Part shown: piece by piece, positions 2,690-47,257 of the stretch
How the letters are laid out: the number at the start of each line of letters is the position of its first letter
Position numbering within the stretch: position 1 is the stretch's first letter
Source of the DNA: Bacillota bacterium
GTDB taxonomy: Bacteria > Bacillota > Sulfobacillia > JABLXB01
Direction: 5' to 3'
NCBI GenBank assembly: GCA_013178305.1
Contig: JABLXB010000001.1
Location: forward strand, 874,253 to 938,252
Length of the DNA stretch: 64,000 nt
Made by a program: the position numbers and the translations under genes
The notes under the pieces: generated by a model
What the model saw: the letters and a program-made list of their open reading frames with translations, nothing else
Told to the model about the DNA's origin: nothing
The model's database searches: none

Positions 2690-2935
2690 CGCGACCCACC
2701 CTTTCTTGAACCGCTGGGGACCCGCCGGTTGTGAGCACCGGTGTGTGCTCCATCACTTATTGACGCCGGGGCCGCCCCGCGTGTTCCCCCCTTGGAGGTA
2801 CTGCGCAACTCCTGCGATCACCTTCATCCAAGGGGCGCCGGCGTTGCGGCCACGGGGGAATCTCGCCACGGGCGGCGAATTACATCGGGTCAGCATCTTC
2901 TTTCAGCATCTGCCATTGGCGGGAGGGGTTTTTCG
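2690..2935. promoter_or_regulatory. Divergent intergenic region
   Basis: These 246 bases separate the SIMPL and BKACE genes. GAGCAC at 2732-2737 and GTGCTC at 2744-2749 form a small inverted repeat that could be an operator. No convincing -35/-10 pair was found on either strand. Confidence 0.25.
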
Positions 2936-3763
2936 GTGGACAAGCTCATCATCGTGGTCGCGCCCGTGGGCGCCGAGGTCACCAGGAAGGAGCAGCCTAA
3001 CCTTCCTATCACGGCCGGCGAGATCGCGCGGGAGGTCAAGCGGTGCCGCGAGGCGGGCGCCGCCGTGGTGCACCTCCACGTCAGGGATAAGGACGGCAAC
3101 CCGACCCAGGACAAGAACGTTTTCCGGAAGGCTATCGAGGCTATAAAGCAGGAAGCCCCGGATATCATCGTGCAGGTGTCCACCGGCGGTGCCGTGTGGA
3201 TGACGCCGGAAGAGCGGATGCAGTCGATATACTCGCACGACGCGGTCGAGATGGCGACCATCTCGACGGGCACCCTGAACTTCGGAGAGGACGTGTTCAT
3301 GAACACGTTCAAGATAATGGAGTCGTTCGCGAAGGCCATAAAGGAACGCGGCATCAAGCCCGAGATCGAATGCTTCGACGCCGGCCACCTGGATAACGCC
3401 ATGATCCTGGTAAAGCGCGGGCTGATCACCCTACCCGGCCACTTCGACTTCGTGCTGGGCGTGCCCGGCGCGATGGCCGGAGCGCTGCGCAACATGGTGT
3501 TCATGTCGAACAGCGTGCCCGCGGGGTCGACCTGGCAGGTAGCCGGCATCGGCCGCGCCGAGCTGCCGCTCGCGGTGGCGTCCGTTGTGTCAGGCGGCCA
3601 CGTGCGTGTGGGTTTCGAGGACAACATCTTCTACTCGAAGGGGCGCCTGGCGAACTCCAACGCCGAGCTCGTGGCGCGCGTTTCGCGAGTCGCAGCCGAA
3701 GTTGGCCGGGAGGTCGCGACCCCCGACGAAGCACGGAGGATCCTGGGGATCACGTCCAGTTGA
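2936..3763 (+). CDS. Beta-keto acid cleavage enzyme (BKACE / 3-keto-5-aminohexanoate cleavage family)
   Basis: Encodes 275 residues from GTG 2936, with GGGAGGGG eight bases upstream. The BKACE family uses acetyl-CoA and a beta-keto acid to form acetoacetate and a new acyl-CoA; the founding member Kce acts in lysine fermentation. The zinc/catalytic motif HLHVRD places His46 and His48 exactly where Kce has them, and GFEDN supplies the conserved glutamate at residue 228. The length is normal for the family. The substrate cannot be read from the sequence. It stands alone between the SIMPL gene and a leftward amino-acid-transport operon, so a role in amino-acid or keto-acid breakdown is inferred. 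Confidence 0.88.
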   Translation: MDKLIIVVAPVGAEVTRKEQPNLPITAGEIAREVKRCREAGAAVVHLHVRDKDGNPTQDKNVFRKAIEAIKQEAPDIIVQVSTGGAVWMTPEERMQSIYSHDAVEMATISTGTLNFGEDVFMNTFKIMESFAKAIKERGIKPEIECFDAGHLDNAMILVKRGLITLPGHFDFVLGVPGAMAGALRNMVFMSNSVPAGSTWQVAGIGRAELPLAVASVVSGGHVRVGFEDNIFYSKGRLANSNAELVARVSRVAAEVGREVATPDEARRILGITSS

Positions 3764-39848: not shown

Positions 39849-40822
39849 GGAAGATCAGCTACGCGCAGGCGCTGAACGAGGCGTTGCGGGAGGAAATGGA
39901 CAGGGACCCCGCTGTTTTCCTGATGGGAGAGGACGTCGGAGCGTTCGGAAACGTCTTCTTCGTGGCGAAAGGGCTTCTGGACAAGTACGGCCCCGACCGC
40001 GTGAGGGACACGCCGATATCGGAGCAGGCCATCGTCGCAACGGGGTTGGGAGCGGCACTCGCCGGCGCCAGGCCCGTGGTGGAGATCATGTTCATCGACT
40101 TCGCCACGATGGCCATGGACCCCATCGTGAATCAGGCGGCGAAGATGAGATACCACTCGGGCGGCACGCTGAAGGCGCCCATGGTCATTCGCACACAGGG
40201 CGGCGTGGGGCGCGGTAACGGAAGCCAGCATTCGCAAAGCCTCGAGGCCTGGTTCATGCACATCCCCGGCCTGAAGGTGGTTATGCCATCTACGCCCTAC
40301 GATGCCAAAGGGCTTCTCAAGTCCGCCATACGGGACGACGACCCCGTCGTTTTCATAGAGCACAAGCGGCTGTATGGAACGTGGGGCGAGGTCCCCGAAG
40401 AGGAGTACACGGTGCCCATCGGAGAAGCGGCTGTACGGCGACAGGGCGGCGACGTGACGATAATCGCCGCATCGCGCCAGGCACTGCTGGCCGAGGATGC
40501 TGCCCGGATCCTCGAGTCCGAAGGGATCCACGCCGAGGTGATCGACCTCAGGTCCATTTCGCCGCTTGACAGGGAGACGATCGGCCGGTCCGTGAGGAAG
40601 ACCGGTAGGACGGTTATAGTCCACGAAGCGTGTAAGACCGGAGGTATCGGAGCAGAACTCACGGCCGTTGTCCTGGAGGAAGCGTTCTACTACCTCGACG
40701 CCCCGGTAATCCGTGTGACCGGGGAAGACGTGCCAATACCGTTCAACGCCGACCTCGAAGCGGCGGCTATTCCGTCGGTTGATAAGATCGTAAGCGGCGT
40801 CAAATCCATACTCCAGTCATAA
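39845..40822 (+). CDS. 2-oxoacid dehydrogenase E1 beta (AcoB/PdhB-like)
   Basis: Encodes 325 residues from ATG 39845, overlapping the E1 alpha stop by four bases (ATGA). Transketolase-like motifs: FLMGEDVGAFGNVF with the thiamine-activating glutamate, RVRDTPISEQAIVATGLGAA, and the C-terminal ISPLDRETIGRSVRKTGR. It forms the alpha2-beta2 heterotetramer with E1 alpha. The gene ends against a decayed, convergent ATPase gene; any original acoC/acoL-type neighbours may have been lost there. Confidence 0.9.
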   Translation: MRKISYAQALNEALREEMDRDPAVFLMGEDVGAFGNVFFVAKGLLDKYGPDRVRDTPISEQAIVATGLGAALAGARPVVEIMFIDFATMAMDPIVNQAAKMRYHSGGTLKAPMVIRTQGGVGRGNGSQHSQSLEAWFMHIPGLKVVMPSTPYDAKGLLKSAIRDDDPVVFIEHKRLYGTWGEVPEEEYTVPIGEAAVRRQGGDVTIIAASRQALLAEDAARILESEGIHAEVIDLRSISPLDRETIGRSVRKTGRTVIVHEACKTGGIGAELTAVVLEEAFYYLDAPVIRVTGEDVPIPFNADLEAAAIPSVDKIVSGVKSILQS

Positions 40823-41606
40823 TTGTGGGGGCGACCCGCAACCAGTCGAGGACAGCCAGTTACTCGCTGGGGTCAGCAGGAATTCCTCGAGAGGAATGCC
40901 TTGCCCGCCAATCAGAAGGCACCGGTGGGAACCGAAGGCCTCGGTGAACGCTTGCAGGCCGGGCAAGGAGTCCTTACGGCGGCCGCTGGTTACCTCCAGG
41001 GCAACCACTTCACGCCCGCGACATACAATGTAGTCTACCTCCCTGCCGTGTTCCCGCCAGTAGTGGACCTCCGCACCCGTACCAGCCAACCCATTGACGA
41101 GGTGGGCGCCCACAGCCGTTTCCACCAACCGGCCCCAGAAGTTATGGTCCATCCGTGCAGCCTCAAGTGAATGCCCCGAGGCAGCGGTCATGAGCGCGGT
41201 ATTGAGGACCAGGAGTTTCGGACTCGAAGCGCGTCGCCGGACGCGACCACCCGCATATTTCTGAAGGCCGGTGAGCATCCCGGCGCCAGCCAAAAGCCTC
41301 TCGTATCTCGCCGTATGACCAGTGCGAAACCCTGTTCAACTCGAAACGGCCGGTAAGGCTGTCGCTGAGCCCACGACTTACCAGGAACGGTGAGGAGCCC
41401 AGCAGCATCACCTTCAGCCGCACTCCCGAGGCGGTATCCTCGTCCCACAACCGCTTGACCACCTCGGACCAGCCGGTGAGCTTGTGGATCTCATCCAGGA
41501 CGAGCAGTGCGCCCTGTTCCCCAGCGTCACGAGCCCGGAAGTGCCCGAACTCCCATTGCGCCTGGAGCCAGCTGCTATCGCGCAGGGCCGGCTGGAGATT
41601 CGCCAA
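40817..41606 (-). pseudogene. Remnant of a DUF4143-type AAA ATPase
   Basis: Two fragments in different frames. The first (41606-41240) has LLVLDEIHKLTGWSEVVKRLWDED, LKVMLLGSSPFL and HWSYGEIREAFGW, the middle of a DUF4143 ATPase. The second (41293-40817) has MLTGLQKYAGGRVRRRASSPKLLVLN and WREHGREVDYIVCRG, its C-terminal nuclease-like domain. The Walker A region and the whole segment between REAFGW and MLTGLQ (about 130 residues in relatives) are missing. It overlaps the E1 beta stop on the opposite strand. Non-functional. Confidence 0.75.
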
Positions 41607-41993: not shown

Positions 41994-42229
41994 GTGTTTC
42001 GAATTGGCCGCCGGGAGTTGGGGTTCCTGCCGAATTGGGGAAACCAACCCGGGCAGATGGACACCGCCGCGCCGATCAGATATGATACATATGCTGTTTT
42101 CGCCCACGGCTCGCGCATTTTCCCATGGCGGAGCCGCTTCCTTTTGCGGCGGGTCCGGGTGAGTCCGGGCGGGTTCCGGCGGGGGTAGTCAAGCACGACA
42201 AGGATGGACCAGGGGCGAGGCGCCAGCAT

Positions 42230-43459
42230 ATGTCGAACACCGAAAGCCATCTGAAAAACACGATAGCCGCCATGCTGGCCATACTCAAGACCCCCCGGAT
42301 CGCCCTGGTCCGGCCCTCAGTCAACCTGTTCCTGATGCGGTACATGGGCAAGTTCCGGTTGAAGAGGGTGGGCGGCAATCTCATACTGCATTCCCACCTG
42401 CCGCCGGTGAATAGCAAGGCCTTTGCACGGTTCGTCAACGAGCAACTCGTAGGCAGGTCGGCCGGCCCCTCCCACGCGCAGATTGGGCTGACCAGCGCCT
42501 GCCCGCAGCACTGCGGCTGCTGCTACAGCAGGCGCCGCGCCGGCCAGCCGGTGGACACGGAAACAATAATCAAAGCCATCCGAGACCTGAAGCGCCTGGG
42601 TGTCTTCTGGCTGGGGTTCACCGGCGGCGAGCCGCTGCTGAACAGGGACATCGTGCGGATTACCGGGAGTGCCGGCGATGATTGCGCCATCAAGCTGTTC
42701 ACCACCGGCTGCGGCCTGACCAGGGAACTGGCCGCCGGCCTGCAGCGGGCCGGGTTGTACTCCGTGTCCGTCAGCCTGGATCACCCGGAGGAAGCGGTGC
42801 ACGATCAGGGGCGGGGCTACCCGGGCGCCTACCGGGCCGCCCGGCGGGCCATAGACACCTTCCTGGACCTGGGCACGGTGCATGTCGCCGTCTCGACGGT
42901 GCTGACCAGGGAAATGATCAACAGCAGCCAGGCGGAGGATTTCCTCGGGTTCCTGGAGGGCCTCGGCATCCACGAAGCCTGGCTGAGCGAGGTCAAGCCC
43001 TCGGTCCCAGCCTGCTGGAACAGGGAAGCGGTAATCACCGAGGCGGAACGCCTGAAGCTGGTTGACTTGCAGGACCGCCACAACCAAAAGGGGAAAATGA
43101 CTGTCAACTACCTGGGCCACTTCGAGGGCAGGGAGCACTTCGGCTGCAACGCCGGAAGCAAGATGGTCTACGTCGATGCCTCGGGCGAGGTCGGCCCCTG
43201 CGTGTTTACCCCGATGACCTTCGGCAACTTGCGGGAACGGCCGTTGGCCGAGATCGTCCGGGAGATGCGCAAGCGCTTCCCATCGGGGGATAGTTGTTTC
43301 ATCAACGATAATTACGAACTGCTGAAGCGGCATCACCGCGGACGGATGCCGCTGGGCCGCGAGGAAACGCTGGCCATCCTGAAGGAAGCCCGCTTCGGGC
43401 CTCCCGCCGGGTTCTTTCAACTACACGGCAAGGGGGACCGGGGGAGGCGGGCGAGATGA
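42230..43459 (+). CDS. Radical SAM protein with SPASM-like C-terminal cysteines
   Basis: Encodes 409 residues; ATG 42230 is the best start (GGGGCGAGG upstream), though the frame extends back to 42125. The radical SAM cluster motif CPQHCGCC gives Cys91, Cys95 and Cys98, followed by GGEP at 132-135. The C-terminal part has Cys306 (FGCNAG), Cys324 (GPCVF) and Cys356, which suggests an auxiliary cluster of SPASM or twitch type. Such enzymes modify peptides or activate small substrates by radical chemistry. It is the first of four overlapping genes ending with an Fe-S flavoprotein. No precursor-peptide gene is evident nearby. Confidence 0.88.
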   Translation: MSNTESHLKNTIAAMLAILKTPRIALVRPSVNLFLMRYMGKFRLKRVGGNLILHSHLPPVNSKAFARFVNEQLVGRSAGPSHAQIGLTSACPQHCGCCYSRRRAGQPVDTETIIKAIRDLKRLGVFWLGFTGGEPLLNRDIVRITGSAGDDCAIKLFTTGCGLTRELAAGLQRAGLYSVSVSLDHPEEAVHDQGRGYPGAYRAARRAIDTFLDLGTVHVAVSTVLTREMINSSQAEDFLGFLEGLGIHEAWLSEVKPSVPACWNREAVITEAERLKLVDLQDRHNQKGKMTVNYLGHFEGREHFGCNAGSKMVYVDASGEVGPCVFTPMTFGNLRERPLAEIVREMRKRFPSGDSCFINDNYELLKRHHRGRMPLGREETLAILKEARFGPPAGFFQLHGKGDRGRRAR

Positions 43460-43911
43460 TGAGGTACTACCGGCCCATAAGCCTTACCGGGGCGCTGGCT
43501 TTTGTCGCTGTTGGAGCGCTATTCCTGATCAGGCCGGACCAGGCAATCGCCTTCTTCAACCGCCAGGCCGGCCATGTTGGGATGCCGGGCCTGCCGCTCG
43601 CGGATCTGCGACTGACAGAGCTGCCGCTTTCGGGCCTGAACTTCTACGTCGTGCTTGCCGTGGCGTACATGTACCTGGTGGCCTTACTGGCGCTGGCGAT
43701 GTTCCTCCATCCCGGGCAGAGGTTATACCCGCTGCTACTGGCGCATGGCAAACTGGCCTCCGCCGCACTGTCTTTTTACGTCTTTTTCTCCCAGCTGCGC
43801 GCCCTGATCTTCCTGGTCAACGGCGTGGTTGACGGGCTGATCGGCCTGGTCGCCTTGTACTTCTATTTCGGATTGAGGTCCGAGTCGAGGAAGGCTGGAT
43901 CCGGGTCATGA
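43456..43911 (+). CDS. Four-span integral membrane protein of unknown function
   Basis: Encodes 151 residues from ATG 43456, overlapping the radical SAM stop by four bases. Hydrophobic spans at about 8-27, 62-82, 90-112 and 115-138. Polar conserved-looking residues are few (FFNRQAGH after the first span). I do not recognise the family; a DoxX-like or small carrier fold is possible. Its place between soluble redox enzymes suggests that the pathway substrate or product is membrane-associated. Confidence 0.65.
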   Translation: MMRYYRPISLTGALAFVAVGALFLIRPDQAIAFFNRQAGHVGMPGLPLADLRLTELPLSGLNFYVVLAVAYMYLVALLALAMFLHPGQRLYPLLLAHGKLASAALSFYVFFSQLRALIFLVNGVVDGLIGLVALYFYFGLRSESRKAGSGS

Positions 43912-44468
43912 ACTGGCGGTTGGCGCTCCTGCGGCTATACTTGCCCGCCGCCATTAAGCGTGACAAACTGCGGGAACTGGTCTCCCTCACCGCCGACGCT
44001 TTCGGGTGCGCTGCCCCGGGCATGGAGGGGCTCAGCTATCGGGATTGCCTGCGCCGGTATGCCCTTTTCACCAGGGAGCAGGCGGAAAAGGCCCTGGAAC
44101 GGGGGTCCGGCCTTCCGGAGATCCGGGACCGGCTCTACCGCAACGCCCACCGGTTTGGACAGGGAATAAGACAACAACTCGGCATCGCAGGGCCGGGAGA
44201 AGCGGTTGCGGCGATGCGATCCCTCTACCGGGCGATAGGGATAGATTTCGCGGGTGAATTGCCGGGGGGGTTGCCGGGCGAGGTGGTCATCGGCAGGTGC
44301 TTCTTCAGCCGTTTCTACTCCGAGGGGGTCTGCCGGTTGATCTCCGCCCTGGACTCCGGGGTCGCAGCCGGGATTTCCGGCGGTGGTCAATTGGAATTCT
44401 ACCAGCGCCTCAGCGAGGGGCACGAATGTTGCCGGGCGCAGTTCCGGTTCAAGGGGGAGGCCGGATGA
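43908..44468 (+). CDS. Unknown protein with conserved cysteines
   Basis: Encodes 186 residues from ATG 43908, overlapping the membrane-protein stop. Mostly helical N-terminal half (YRDCLRRYALFTREQAEKAL), then VIGRCFFSRFYSEGVCRLISALDSGVAAG and a C-terminal EGHECCRAQFRF with a Cys pair. The Cys placement recalls L-2-amino-thiazoline-4-carboxylate hydrolase-like proteins, but the resemblance is weak. Its overlaps on both sides show that it belongs to the radical SAM operon. Confidence 0.6.
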   Translation: MNWRLALLRLYLPAAIKRDKLRELVSLTADAFGCAAPGMEGLSYRDCLRRYALFTREQAEKALERGSGLPEIRDRLYRNAHRFGQGIRQQLGIAGPGEAVAAMRSLYRAIGIDFAGELPGGLPGEVVIGRCFFSRFYSEGVCRLISALDSGVAAGISGGGQLEFYQRLSEGHECCRAQFRFKGEAG

Positions 44469-45766
44469 AGCAGGCCGTCATTGTTGGCAGCGGCGCGGGC
44501 GGCGCCACCGTGGCCAGGGAACTGCAGGGGCATTTCCAGGTTACCGTGCTGGAGGCGGGACGGGAGTTCCGCCCGTTTGCCCGCGACCTTGTCCTGTTGG
44601 AGAGGCTGAAGAAAACCGGCCTGTTCTTCGACGAGCGGCAAGTCCAGCTGTTGTTCCCGTCCATGCGCGTCAGGAAGACGGTCGACAACATGGTGCTCGT
44701 CAACGGCGTTGGGCTCGGCGGGACGACCACCATATCCGCCGGCAACGCCATCCGGATGGATCGGGACCTGCTGGCACTGGGCATCAACCTGGACGCCGAG
44801 TTCGCCGAACTCTTCCGGGAAATACCCATCACCACCAGCCACATGGGACGCTGGCGGGAAGTGACCCGGCGCCTATTCGGCGTCTGCCGGGAAATGAACC
44901 TTAGCCCCTATCCAATCCCAAAGATGGGGCGGTACGAGCGATGCGTCAACTGCGGCCGGTGCGTCCTCGGTTGCGCCCGCGGGGTGAAATGGGACAGCAG
45001 GCAGTTCCTGCATATGGCCCTGAACAGGGGCGCCAGGGTTGTTACCGGCTGCCGGGTGGAAAGGGTCGTGCTTGAAGGTGGCCTGGCCACCGGGGTGCGG
45101 GCGCGGCAGGGGCGGCGCGAGGTGTTCTACCCGGCCGATCTGGTGGTGCTGGCCGCCGGCGGCCTGGGAACGCCGGTCATCCTGCAGAACTCCGGCATCG
45201 CCTGCGAAGCGAGGCTATTCGTGGACCCGGTGCTGTGCGTGGCTACAGAATGGCCCGGCGTCATGCAGAACAGGGAAATGACCATGCCGTTCGTCGTGCA
45301 GATGAACGGCTACATCCTGTCGCCCTACTTCGACTGGCTGAGCTTCTTTTTCAACCGGAACTACCGGTACCCCGCCGGCGACACACTGGGCATGATGATC
45401 AAGCTGGCGGACGACAGTGTTGGCAGCATCTCCGCGGGGAAGATAGACAAGATGCTGACCGAATCCGATCGCGCCAGGTTAAGCGACGCGGTGGACGTTT
45501 GCGCCGAGATCTTCCGGCGGTTTGGAGTGCGGGTGGGGCCAAGGAAAGAGCGGCTCTTCCTGGGCACCATCAATGCCGGTCACCCCGGCGGCATGCTGCC
45601 GCTCACCGAACGGGAAGCGGTCACGATGCACCACTCCAGCCTGCCGCCGAACCTGTATGTGGCCGACGCCACACTGCTACCCAGGTCCCTGGGTAACCCG
45701 CCGATACTGACGATCATGGCCCTGGCCAAGCGGATCAGCGCGGTGTGCGCGCGGGGCGCATGGTGA
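44465..45766 (+). CDS. GMC-type FAD oxidoreductase with a predicted [4Fe-4S] motif
   Basis: Encodes 433 residues from ATG 44465 (AGGGGGAGG upstream), overlapping the previous stop by four bases. The FAD Rossmann motif is VIVGSGAGGATVARELQG (5-22). VLVNGVGLGGTT is GMC-like, and the C-terminal VADATLLPRSLGNPPILTIMALAKR is the GMC FAD/substrate end. Between them Cys160, Cys163, Cys166 and Cys170 form CxxCxxCxxxC, a ferredoxin-type cluster motif that ordinary GMC enzymes lack. It probably passes electrons between FAD and a cluster while oxidising or reducing an alcohol or lipid-like substrate. Partner enzyme: the operon's radical SAM protein. Confidence 0.82.
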   Translation: MKQAVIVGSGAGGATVARELQGHFQVTVLEAGREFRPFARDLVLLERLKKTGLFFDERQVQLLFPSMRVRKTVDNMVLVNGVGLGGTTTISAGNAIRMDRDLLALGINLDAEFAELFREIPITTSHMGRWREVTRRLFGVCREMNLSPYPIPKMGRYERCVNCGRCVLGCARGVKWDSRQFLHMALNRGARVVTGCRVERVVLEGGLATGVRARQGRREVFYPADLVVLAAGGLGTPVILQNSGIACEARLFVDPVLCVATEWPGVMQNREMTMPFVVQMNGYILSPYFDWLSFFFNRNYRYPAGDTLGMMIKLADDSVGSISAGKIDKMLTESDRARLSDAVDVCAEIFRRFGVRVGPRKERLFLGTINAGHPGGMLPLTEREAVTMHHSSLPPNLYVADATLLPRSLGNPPILTIMALAKRISAVCARGAW

Positions 45767-45899: not shown

Positions 45900-46235
45900 C
45901 TACTTCAATCCGAGGCTGTGGTGGATAGCATCATCGACCTTGAGCATTATGCGTGTGGAGAGATGTCCGATCTTGTTCAGAAGACGCTCCTTGTCAACAG
46001 TGAGGATCTGGTCAAGCTTGATTGTGCTCCTTTGAGGAAGGCCGCTATCCTCCGGTTCAACGATCACCTGGAATGGATACGAACCCCTGATGGTGGTGGT
46101 TACCGCGGCGACTATTGTGGTCGAGGAATGGAGATTGCCGATATCATTCTGGATGATGAGCGCCGGCCTTGCACCTGTCTGCTCGTGCCCCCTGCCTGGC
46201 GACCAATCGACCATGTAGAAGTCCCCTCTATTCAT
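45900..46235 (-). CDS. MazF/PemK-family toxin endoribonuclease
   Basis: Encodes 111 residues from ATG 46235 with GGAGGTGG upstream. MNRGDFYMVDWSPGRGHEQTGARPALIIQND is the MazF N-terminus with the catalytic arginine region; later come TIVAAVTTT and TIKLDQILTVDKERL with the conserved serine/threonine-leucine-aspartate-Q element. It cleaves mRNA at short sequences when the antitoxin is degraded. It overlaps the antitoxin gene by eight bases. Confidence 0.9.
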   Translation of the reverse strand: MNRGDFYMVDWSPGRGHEQTGARPALIIQNDIGNLHSSTTIVAAVTTTIRGSYPFQVIVEPEDSGLPQRSTIKLDQILTVDKERLLNKIGHLSTRIMLKVDDAIHHSLGLK

Positions 46236-46470
46236 CGCGGAGGACCACCTCCGCCTGTGCGGGAAGACATGACTCAGCGACCCGCAAGTTTTCTGCGGCG
46301 CACTGCCTGTATCCCTCGGCCATCCGCGCCTCGACCTCGGCTCGCTCCGCCCCTTCAATGATGTCCGCGATTACCTTGCTGCGGCATGCCTTGGTCCTCT
46401 TGGCGCGGCGGTCCACGAAGGCGGCCAGACCCGCTTCGAGCGTTATCGTGACCCTTACCTTCCGGCTCAT
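46228..46470 (-). CDS. Ribbon-helix-helix antitoxin of the MazEF-type pair
   Basis: Encodes 80 residues from ATG 46470 (GAGGTG six bases upstream; a GTG at 46479 is the alternative). The N-terminal MSRKVRVTITLEAGLAAFVDRRAKRTKACRSKVIADIIEGA is a ribbon-helix-helix DNA-binding domain; the acidic, helical remainder should wrap the toxin. It would repress its own promoter with MazF. Confidence 0.82.
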   Translation of the reverse strand: MSRKVRVTITLEAGLAAFVDRRAKRTKACRSKVIADIIEGAERAEVEARMAEGYRQCAAENLRVAESCLPAQAEVVLRDE

Positions 46471-46648
46471 CACAGTCACCTCATGGACATCATATCATAC
46501 TGGGTGTCATACGATCTATCACATGATGCTTGCATACTAGCCTTCTGTACTTGCCGTCATCGACTCAATGGGAAGGGAGAGGAGCTCAACCTGGAGAAAT
46601 CGAGGTCAACAATGGTGAACAAACTCCGAACTTGAAAGGGGAAGCCGT
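46471..46648. promoter_or_regulatory. Divergent region upstream of the toxin-antitoxin pair
   Basis: On the minus strand GTATGA occurs twice in direct repeat (within 46495-46515), close to TATGAT elements that could serve as a -10. Direct repeats at this position are typical operators for ribbon-helix-helix antitoxins. Nothing else is evident. Confidence 0.3.
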
Positions 46649-47257
46649 GTGTACTACCCCGACGACTACATCTACCAACTGCGCGTGGAACTGAAGAACA
46701 GCAAACCTTGCATCTGGAGGCGGGTACAGGTACAATCCTGCATTACCCTTCCCAGGCTCCACAAGGTGCTCCAGGCAATCATGGGTTGGTGGGACTACCA
46801 CCTATACCTCTTCAGCATCGGGCCCACGGAATACAGCGAGCCAGATCCTGACGGGCTTTTTGAGTTCACCGATGTTAGATACGTACGTCTCAACAAGGTC
46901 GCGCCACGGACAGGCATGGCATTCATCTACGAGTACGACTTCGGGGACGGATGGGAGCACATAGTGTCGGTGGAGAGCGCGTTTCCACCCGCCGCCGGCA
47001 TCAGGTACCCGGTCTGCACCGGTGGCGAGCGAGCCTGCCCACACGAGGATTCTGGAGGGATCTCGGGACACGAGAGAATCCTTCGAATCCTGAGGCGTGG
47101 GCGGGACCAGGAGTACCGTGATACAAGGACATGGCTCGGCGAAGACTACGATCCCGGGGCGTTCAGCGTCGAAGAAGCCAACAGCAGGCTCGAACGCATA
47201 AGAAAAGTCATGGAGAGGTCGACAGCCGCCCTGTCGCGGACGAAGCGCATGGGATGA
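46649..47257 (+). CDS. Plasmid pRiA4b ORF-3-like protein
   Basis: Encodes 202 residues from GTG 46649 with AAAGGGGAA upstream. The fold markers are YQLRVELKNSKPCIWRRVQV, LPRLHKVLQAIMGWWDYHLYLF, FIYEYDFGDGWEHIVSVE and CTGGERACPHEDSGG. All are characteristic of the pRiA4b ORF-3 family (PF07929). The family occurs in plasmids and accessory regions and its function is unknown. It is adjacent to the toxin-antitoxin pair but transcribed divergently. Confidence 0.85.
   Translation: MYYPDDYIYQLRVELKNSKPCIWRRVQVQSCITLPRLHKVLQAIMGWWDYHLYLFSIGPTEYSEPDPDGLFEFTDVRYVRLNKVAPRTGMAFIYEYDFGDGWEHIVSVESAFPPAAGIRYPVCTGGERACPHEDSGGISGHERILRILRRGRDQEYRDTRTWLGEDYDPGAFSVEEANSRLERIRKVMERSTAALSRTKRMG

Follow-up and report, generated by a model that had tools for sequence, protein, structure and literature searches.

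A four-gene cassette joining a radical SAM protein to a GMC flavoprotein, with an exchangeable front end, suggests an undescribed lipid-type pathway

A stretch of 64,000 nucleotides from a Bacillota bacterium (assembly GCA_013178305.1, contig JABLXB010000001.1, positions 874,253 to 938,252 of the forward strand; hereafter, the window) was found to carry four tightly packed genes, here designated A, B, C and D (Table 1). They encode a radical S-adenosylmethionine (SAM) protein with a SPASM domain, a small membrane protein, a protein with a predicted V4R/Bet3 fold and a GMC-type flavin adenine dinucleotide (FAD) oxidoreductase with an iron-sulfur (Fe-S) motif, respectively. All four reading frames are open, and the A-B, B-C and C-D junctions each share an ATGA, so that at all three the stop codon overlaps the next start by four bases, exactly as the initial annotation of this DNA had described. 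The four-gene operon is real and represents a conserved unit. C and D form a fixed pair, whereas the A-B half has repeatedly been exchanged in related loci for an unrelated module that activates and reduces fatty acids, which suggests a lipid-type pathway that has not been described.

The initial annotation proposed a search for the same four genes in other genomes, and their joint conservation was what we observed. Within the same phylum, A, B, C and D were all confined to the same five of 398 genomes, three of which share one genus; this count required at least 60% identity for D and at least 50% for A, and weaker relatives of both that occur elsewhere were left out. A scan of genome contigs with the single D protein gave no matches, whereas a five-row profile of D, used on one genome per species, revealed 66 loci, mostly with close relatives of D. 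The order A-B-C-D was present in 32 of these and previously identified loci besides the window (31 distinct, since one genome was seen twice, and a few cut by contig ends). They are mostly from metagenome-assembled genomes and span about ten phyla, including Bacillota, Calditrichota, Aminicenantota, Acidobacteriota, KSB1, Spirochaetota, Bacteroidota, Fermentibacterota and Actinomycetota. Upon neighbor clustering of the radical SAM loci, no further gene was common to them beyond the four. Additionally, the pairwise identities of A, B, C and D covaried over 23 loci (Spearman 0.69-0.86), as expected of a co-inherited unit, although shared ancestry alone would give the same pattern. In the tree of D, a Calditrichota copy was nested in a Bacillota group, suggesting either that the cassette moved horizontally or that the contig is misplaced. 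The cassette is widely exchanged among anaerobic bacteria, and its carriers include one named strain in culture, Candidatus Formimonas warabiya DCMF. We found no description of the gene combination in the open-access literature; the component families and folds are known, while their combination and the exchange of the front end appear undescribed.

Natural fusions divide the cassette into two physical sub-units, A-B and C-D. In particular, A and B are fused into one protein in loci L057 (565 residues) and L068 (608 residues), and C and D are fused in L068 (650 residues) and L052 (632 residues). The A-B fusions indicate that B probably holds A at the membrane, and the C-D fusions indicate that C probably works on D.

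The identification of A as a radical SAM protein and of D as an Fe-S flavoprotein in the initial annotation was confirmed, as the domains of both scored over their cut-offs and the cysteine motifs were present. A matched the radical SAM family PF04055 with 58.5 bits (cut-off 29.5) and the SPASM family PF13186 with 32.8 bits (cut-off 21.5). The three auxiliary cysteines of A could leave an iron site open for substrate. None of the curated equivalogs came near its cut-off, the best score being 80.6 bits where 395 would be needed, and A fell far below every curated cut-off for the pyrroloquinoline quinone (PQQ), heme (AhbD, NirJ) and MoaA radical SAM equivalogs. Tight grouping with a characterized pathway, which would have spoken against a new system, was therefore not found. 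In a defense library, A matched viperin (pVip) with 36.9 bits over the radical SAM core only, a superfamily-level similarity, and no defense neighbors were seen. The archaeal tetraether synthase structure 7tol was likewise a superfamily-level match of A, and the lipid enzymes Ger and Mss, weighed from the literature, were among the candidates set aside.

Five more distant relatives of A (29-34% identity) retained the three auxiliary cysteine columns and, before the core, a stretch resembling PPxxSxAF. These relatives, from five genomes, are surrounded by different gene sets, several of which include methyltransferases; such neighbors fit hydrophobic substrates, though they prove nothing. In one of these sets (L138:6102-13227), the A relative lies with genes for a ketosynthase-like protein, a polyketide cyclase, a carotenoid-synthesis-like membrane protein and a methyltransferase, apparently another uncharacterized lipid or polyketide cluster.

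SPASM proteins often act on peptides, and SkfB was among the best solved-structure matches of A. A could accordingly be imagined to mature a small peptide encoded nearby, which D would oxidize further, as in the ribosomally synthesized and post-translationally modified peptides (RiPPs) that the initial annotation had offered as one reading. We consider this very improbable because no small open reading frame (ORF) is conserved nearby. Across the 32 loci and the window, none was conserved in the 1 kb before A or the 1 kb after D, a check that covers linked precursors; the shared small-ORF hits were limited to the antisense strand of A or to common flanks of two related genomes. Furthermore, no leader-binding or transport gene was conserved, and the radical SAM loci had no other common neighbor. 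The RiPP-like reading thus lost support, while the accompanying remark that no precursor peptide was recognizable held within this range.

The structural model of B contained four long helices and one short helix, in agreement with the four-span membrane protein proposed initially. B matched no Pfam or NCBIfam family at E ≤ 1, the fold search with B returned no significant match, and its sequence profile matched nothing in the PDB. Since K99 and D126 are invariant and located inside predicted helices, B may do more than serve as an anchor.

The model of C was confident (mean predicted local distance difference test score of 92.9) and revealed five helices and a four-stranded antiparallel sheet. 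Its best match in the PDB was palmitate-bound TRAPPC3/Bet3 (6aq3), with a Z-score of 12.2 and a root mean square deviation of 3.6 over 146 residues, followed by the phenol-sensor domains of PoxR, MopR and DmpR and by a V4R protein. In the PDB comparison, TRAPPC3, PoxR, MopR and MJ1460 showed Z-scores of 8-12 to C; the Foldseek E-values were modest (best 1.3e-3), with top matches that all belong to one known superfamily. On this confident model, C is predicted to have the V4R/Bet3 fold, whose members bind hydrocarbons, acyl chains or phenols. V4R and Bet3 were united in a published comparison, in which V4R was a predicted hydrocarbon-binding domain (PMC2253512).

Although C resembles TRAPPC3 and the PoxR/MopR/DmpR sensors in fold, the Pfam V4R family (PF02830) matched neither C nor its orthologues at E ≤ 1, and no match was present in the genome of the window. 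Whereas its V4R/Bet3 relatives belong with a regulator or a trafficking complex, C is solitary or fused to a GMC oxidoreductase. C also shares the register of a C/D/C motif with the ATC_hydrolase family (PF14196): C131, D149 and C175 align, at low probability, with the cysteines and aspartate of that family. However, C and several orthologues scored 13-15 bits against a gathering cut-off of 28.1, the weak matches in several orthologues had E-values of 0.05-0.15, and the pairwise profile comparison of C gave a P-value of 0.008 and a probability of only 5%. The earlier description of C as a cysteine protein of no known family was hence right in that its family match is sub-threshold, and wrong in that a V4R/Bet3 fold is recognizable.

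The fold that C has in common with the phenol sensors PoxR, MopR and DmpR, together with the GMC dehydrogenase type of D, would also suit a catabolic or detoxifying route by which anaerobes oxidize a hydrophobic compound (an alcohol, aldehyde or phenolic) and in which C serves as ligand carrier or sensor. Regulators adjoin some loci (TetR-like in L034 and MntR/DtxR-like in gut Clostridia), as such a route might have. Against it, neighbor clustering revealed no transporter, coenzyme A-transferase or beta-oxidation gene conserved beside the cassette, and catabolic routes do not usually employ a radical SAM/SPASM enzyme or an acyl reductase that consumes ATP. We therefore regard catabolism as rather unlikely. 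The same clustering upheld the earlier statement that no transporter is recognizable with these genes.

D matched the GMC family PF00732 with 75.9 bits (cut-off 23) and has a conserved GxGxxG FAD-binding motif; the C-terminal domain PF05199 scored just under its cut-off. Among the 42 orthologues of D, H373 and most of the FAD site were invariant, as were the four cysteines of the Fe-S motif. This motif aligns with the C-x5-C-x3-C stretch of the alpha subunit of bacterial FAD glucose dehydrogenase (6a2u), another GMC protein with its cysteines at the equivalent place. The cysteine motif of the glucose dehydrogenase holds a [3Fe-4S] cluster. Because the motif of D has four cysteines, its sequence suggests a [4Fe-4S] cluster instead. 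In addition, D is approximately 110 residues shorter than the 6a2u protein and has no linked cytochrome gene. Full-length relatives of D with approximately 30-34% identity are present in Photobacterium and in one Bacillota genome (L010:7971-9287 and L020:2495-3784) without A, B or C alongside; a wider GMC subfamily exists.

A radical SAM protein next to a GMC flavoprotein is reportedly a known partnership (MftC and MftG), and the two systems are alike in pairing a SPASM-type radical SAM protein with a GMC flavoprotein within one operon. A might then make a small redox cofactor, mycofactocin- or quinone-like, with D as its dedicated dehydrogenase and C as a carrier. Consistent with this, the closest model to D was TIGR04542, which describes the GMC protein of mycofactocin systems (60.1 bits), and A scored 73.9 bits with the model of their radical SAM protein; however, the respective cut-offs of 400 and 265 lie far above these scores, which places neither protein in those families. 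B and C match no mycofactocin model, D has four invariant Fe-S-type cysteines that set it apart, and no conserved small precursor ORF was found near the cassette. Moreover, A is dispensable, with an acyl ligase/reductase in its place in approximately half of the C-D loci. A cofactor pathway of this kind is thus unlikely. The initial view that no known cofactor pathway could be recognized stands, since the mycofactocin, PQQ, heme and molybdenum-cofactor families were all missed by wide margins.

The main new finding lies beyond the window, in the C-D loci without A and B. A few of these lie on truncated contigs too short for the front end to be judged; in all 28 that could be judged, a fusion of an acyl reductase and an acyl ligase (PF07993 and PF00501) adjoins C-D, accompanied in most by a PF04230 protein. 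A was not found in any of 18 whole genomes of the ligase/reductase type, and the reductase-ligase fusion was not found in any of 19 genomes of the A type, one of which had a separate ligase match; the positive control was detected in both searches, and many of the genomes are metagenome-assembled and possibly incomplete. A further search, made without a positive control, did not find the fusion in the genome of the window or in four A-type relatives. At the level of whole genomes, the two front ends, A-B and the ligase/reductase module, are mutually exclusive. As evident from the tree of D, the two types of front end alternate: the drawn topology contains 6 changes between them and well-supported branches force at least 4, compared with an average of 20 when the labels were shuffled; the tree came from a quick search, has many weakly supported forks and includes one row (L042) labeled without direct evidence. 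This repeated alternation argues that A-B and the ligase/reductase module occupy the same slot beside C-D, and from the alternation alone it may be supposed that they yield the same intermediate.

The alternative module resembles the N-terminal part of ElbD, an enzyme of myxobacterial ether-lipid synthesis (PMC9131029): in both, the acyl reductase domain comes first and the acyl ligase domain second. In contrast to ElbD, no acyl-carrier or acyltransferase domain was found in the module, and its partners differ. The cassette of the window lacks a reductase-ligase protein altogether and is thus unlike ElbD-type ether-lipid synthesis. In gut-type Clostridia, a flavodoxin gene lies upstream of the alternative cassette in L045 (875-1300), L053, L055 and L067 (approximately 2800-3310), and an MntR/DtxR-like regulator lies downstream of it in several loci.

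The PF04230 protein, which is CsaB-like and present in most alternative cassettes, raises the prospect of a glycan or glycolipid modification in which it pyruvylates a sugar while C-D act on a lipid-linked sugar; sugars are frequent substrates of GMC enzymes, and the alignment of D with a glucose dehydrogenase covers the Fe-S region. However, the PF04230 protein stayed below the CsaB cut-off (87-89 bits, with 213 required), the radical SAM loci do not have it, and neighbor clustering revealed no conserved glycosyltransferase or flippase. A glycan route accordingly appears quite improbable.

Around the operon in the window, the G+C content was unremarkable relative to the surroundings. A promoter-like site lies approximately 145 bases upstream of A, on the weak evidence of a consensus match only. 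Further upstream, two overlapping ORFs in different frames match AAA_14 and DUF4143, the halves of one ATPase family, and look like a frameshifted or decayed gene. Directly downstream is a MazF/PemK-like toxin gene overlapped by a small upstream ORF of 83 residues, probably its antitoxin, and a nearby protein similar to ORF-3 of plasmid pRiA4b suggests an accessory region.

Table 1. Positions of the cassette, its conserved motifs and neighboring features in the window.
Feature	Position	Strand	Basis or remark
Genes A, B, C and D	42230-45766	+	
Gene A, radical SAM/SPASM protein, 409 residues	42230..43459	+	PF04055 and PF13186 over cut-off
Radical SAM cluster motif of A, C91-x3-C95-x2-C98	42500..42523	+	invariant in 25 orthologues
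Auxiliary-cluster cysteines of A, C306, C324, C356	43145..43297	+	invariant in 25 orthologues
Gene B, small membrane protein, 151 residues	43456..43911	+	predicted helices; no Pfam/NCBIfam match
Gene C, V4R/Bet3-fold protein (predicted), 186 residues	43908..44468	+	structure model and PDB comparison
Conserved C131, C142, D149, C175 of C	44298..44432	+	invariant in 47 orthologues
Gene D, GMC-type FAD oxidoreductase with Fe-S motif, 433 residues	44465..45766	+	PF00732 over cut-off
Fe-S motif of D, C160-x2-C163-x2-C166-x3-C170	44942..44974	+	four cysteines invariant in 42 orthologues
Possible sigma-70-type promoter, TGGACA-17-TATGAT	42058..42086	+	10/12 consensus matches; weak evidence
Two overlapping ORFs (AAA_14, DUF4143)	40817-41606	-	
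MazF/PemK-like toxin gene	45900-46479	-	PF02452, 108.6 bits
Plasmid pRiA4b ORF-3-like protein	46649-47257	+	PF07929, 193.8 bits

Taken together, we tentatively favor, at a little short of an even chance, a self-contained, horizontally exchanged and membrane-associated anaerobic pathway for the modification of a hydrophobic long-chain compound. We infer both the substrate and the chemistry. The acyl reductase and ligase of the alternative cassettes, with domains as at the start of ElbD, point to fatty-acyl chemistry, and the compound would most likely be a fatty-acyl-derived membrane lipid or a lipid-like metabolite. In such a pathway, C would bind the hydrophobic chain and present it to D, which would oxidize an alcohol carbon; its FAD and [4Fe-4S] cluster would relay the electrons to a soluble carrier, e.g., flavodoxin or ferredoxin. 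The flavodoxin gene beside some gut Clostridia cassettes is a hint at this carrier. A, held at the membrane by B, would install or expose a group for C-D through 5'-deoxyadenosyl radical chemistry, and the ligase/reductase module would arrive at an equivalent intermediate through conventional chemistry with ATP and NADPH. The initial proposal of a lipid modification or membrane-linked pathway gains support from the fold of C, the A-B membrane fusions and the acyl ligase/reductase swap.

Several points weigh against this pathway. V4R/Bet3-fold proteins also bind phenols or serve as sensors, and the ligand of C is perhaps not a lipid. The known role of PF04230 proteins, the pyruvylation of sugars, would suit a glycan or glycolipid. 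The need for a GMC oxidase after an acyl reductase is not obvious, and A-B and the ligase/reductase module could instead give different end products.

It is common for a biosynthesis operon to contain a radical SAM protein that is unplaced, but a fixed two-gene core with fusions and repeated exchange of one half is rare. The fusions show probable working partners, the exchanged module has predictable chemistry, and the exchange narrows the likely substrate to products that an acyl ligase and an acyl reductase can make. It is possible, if somewhat doubtful, that these genes encode a novel lipid pathway of anaerobes, in which either of two front ends can feed the shared C-D core and a relative of Bet3, a eukaryotic trafficking fold, presents the lipid to an Fe-S flavoenzyme. 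If true, the Bet3/V4R fold would gain a role in an enzyme complex.

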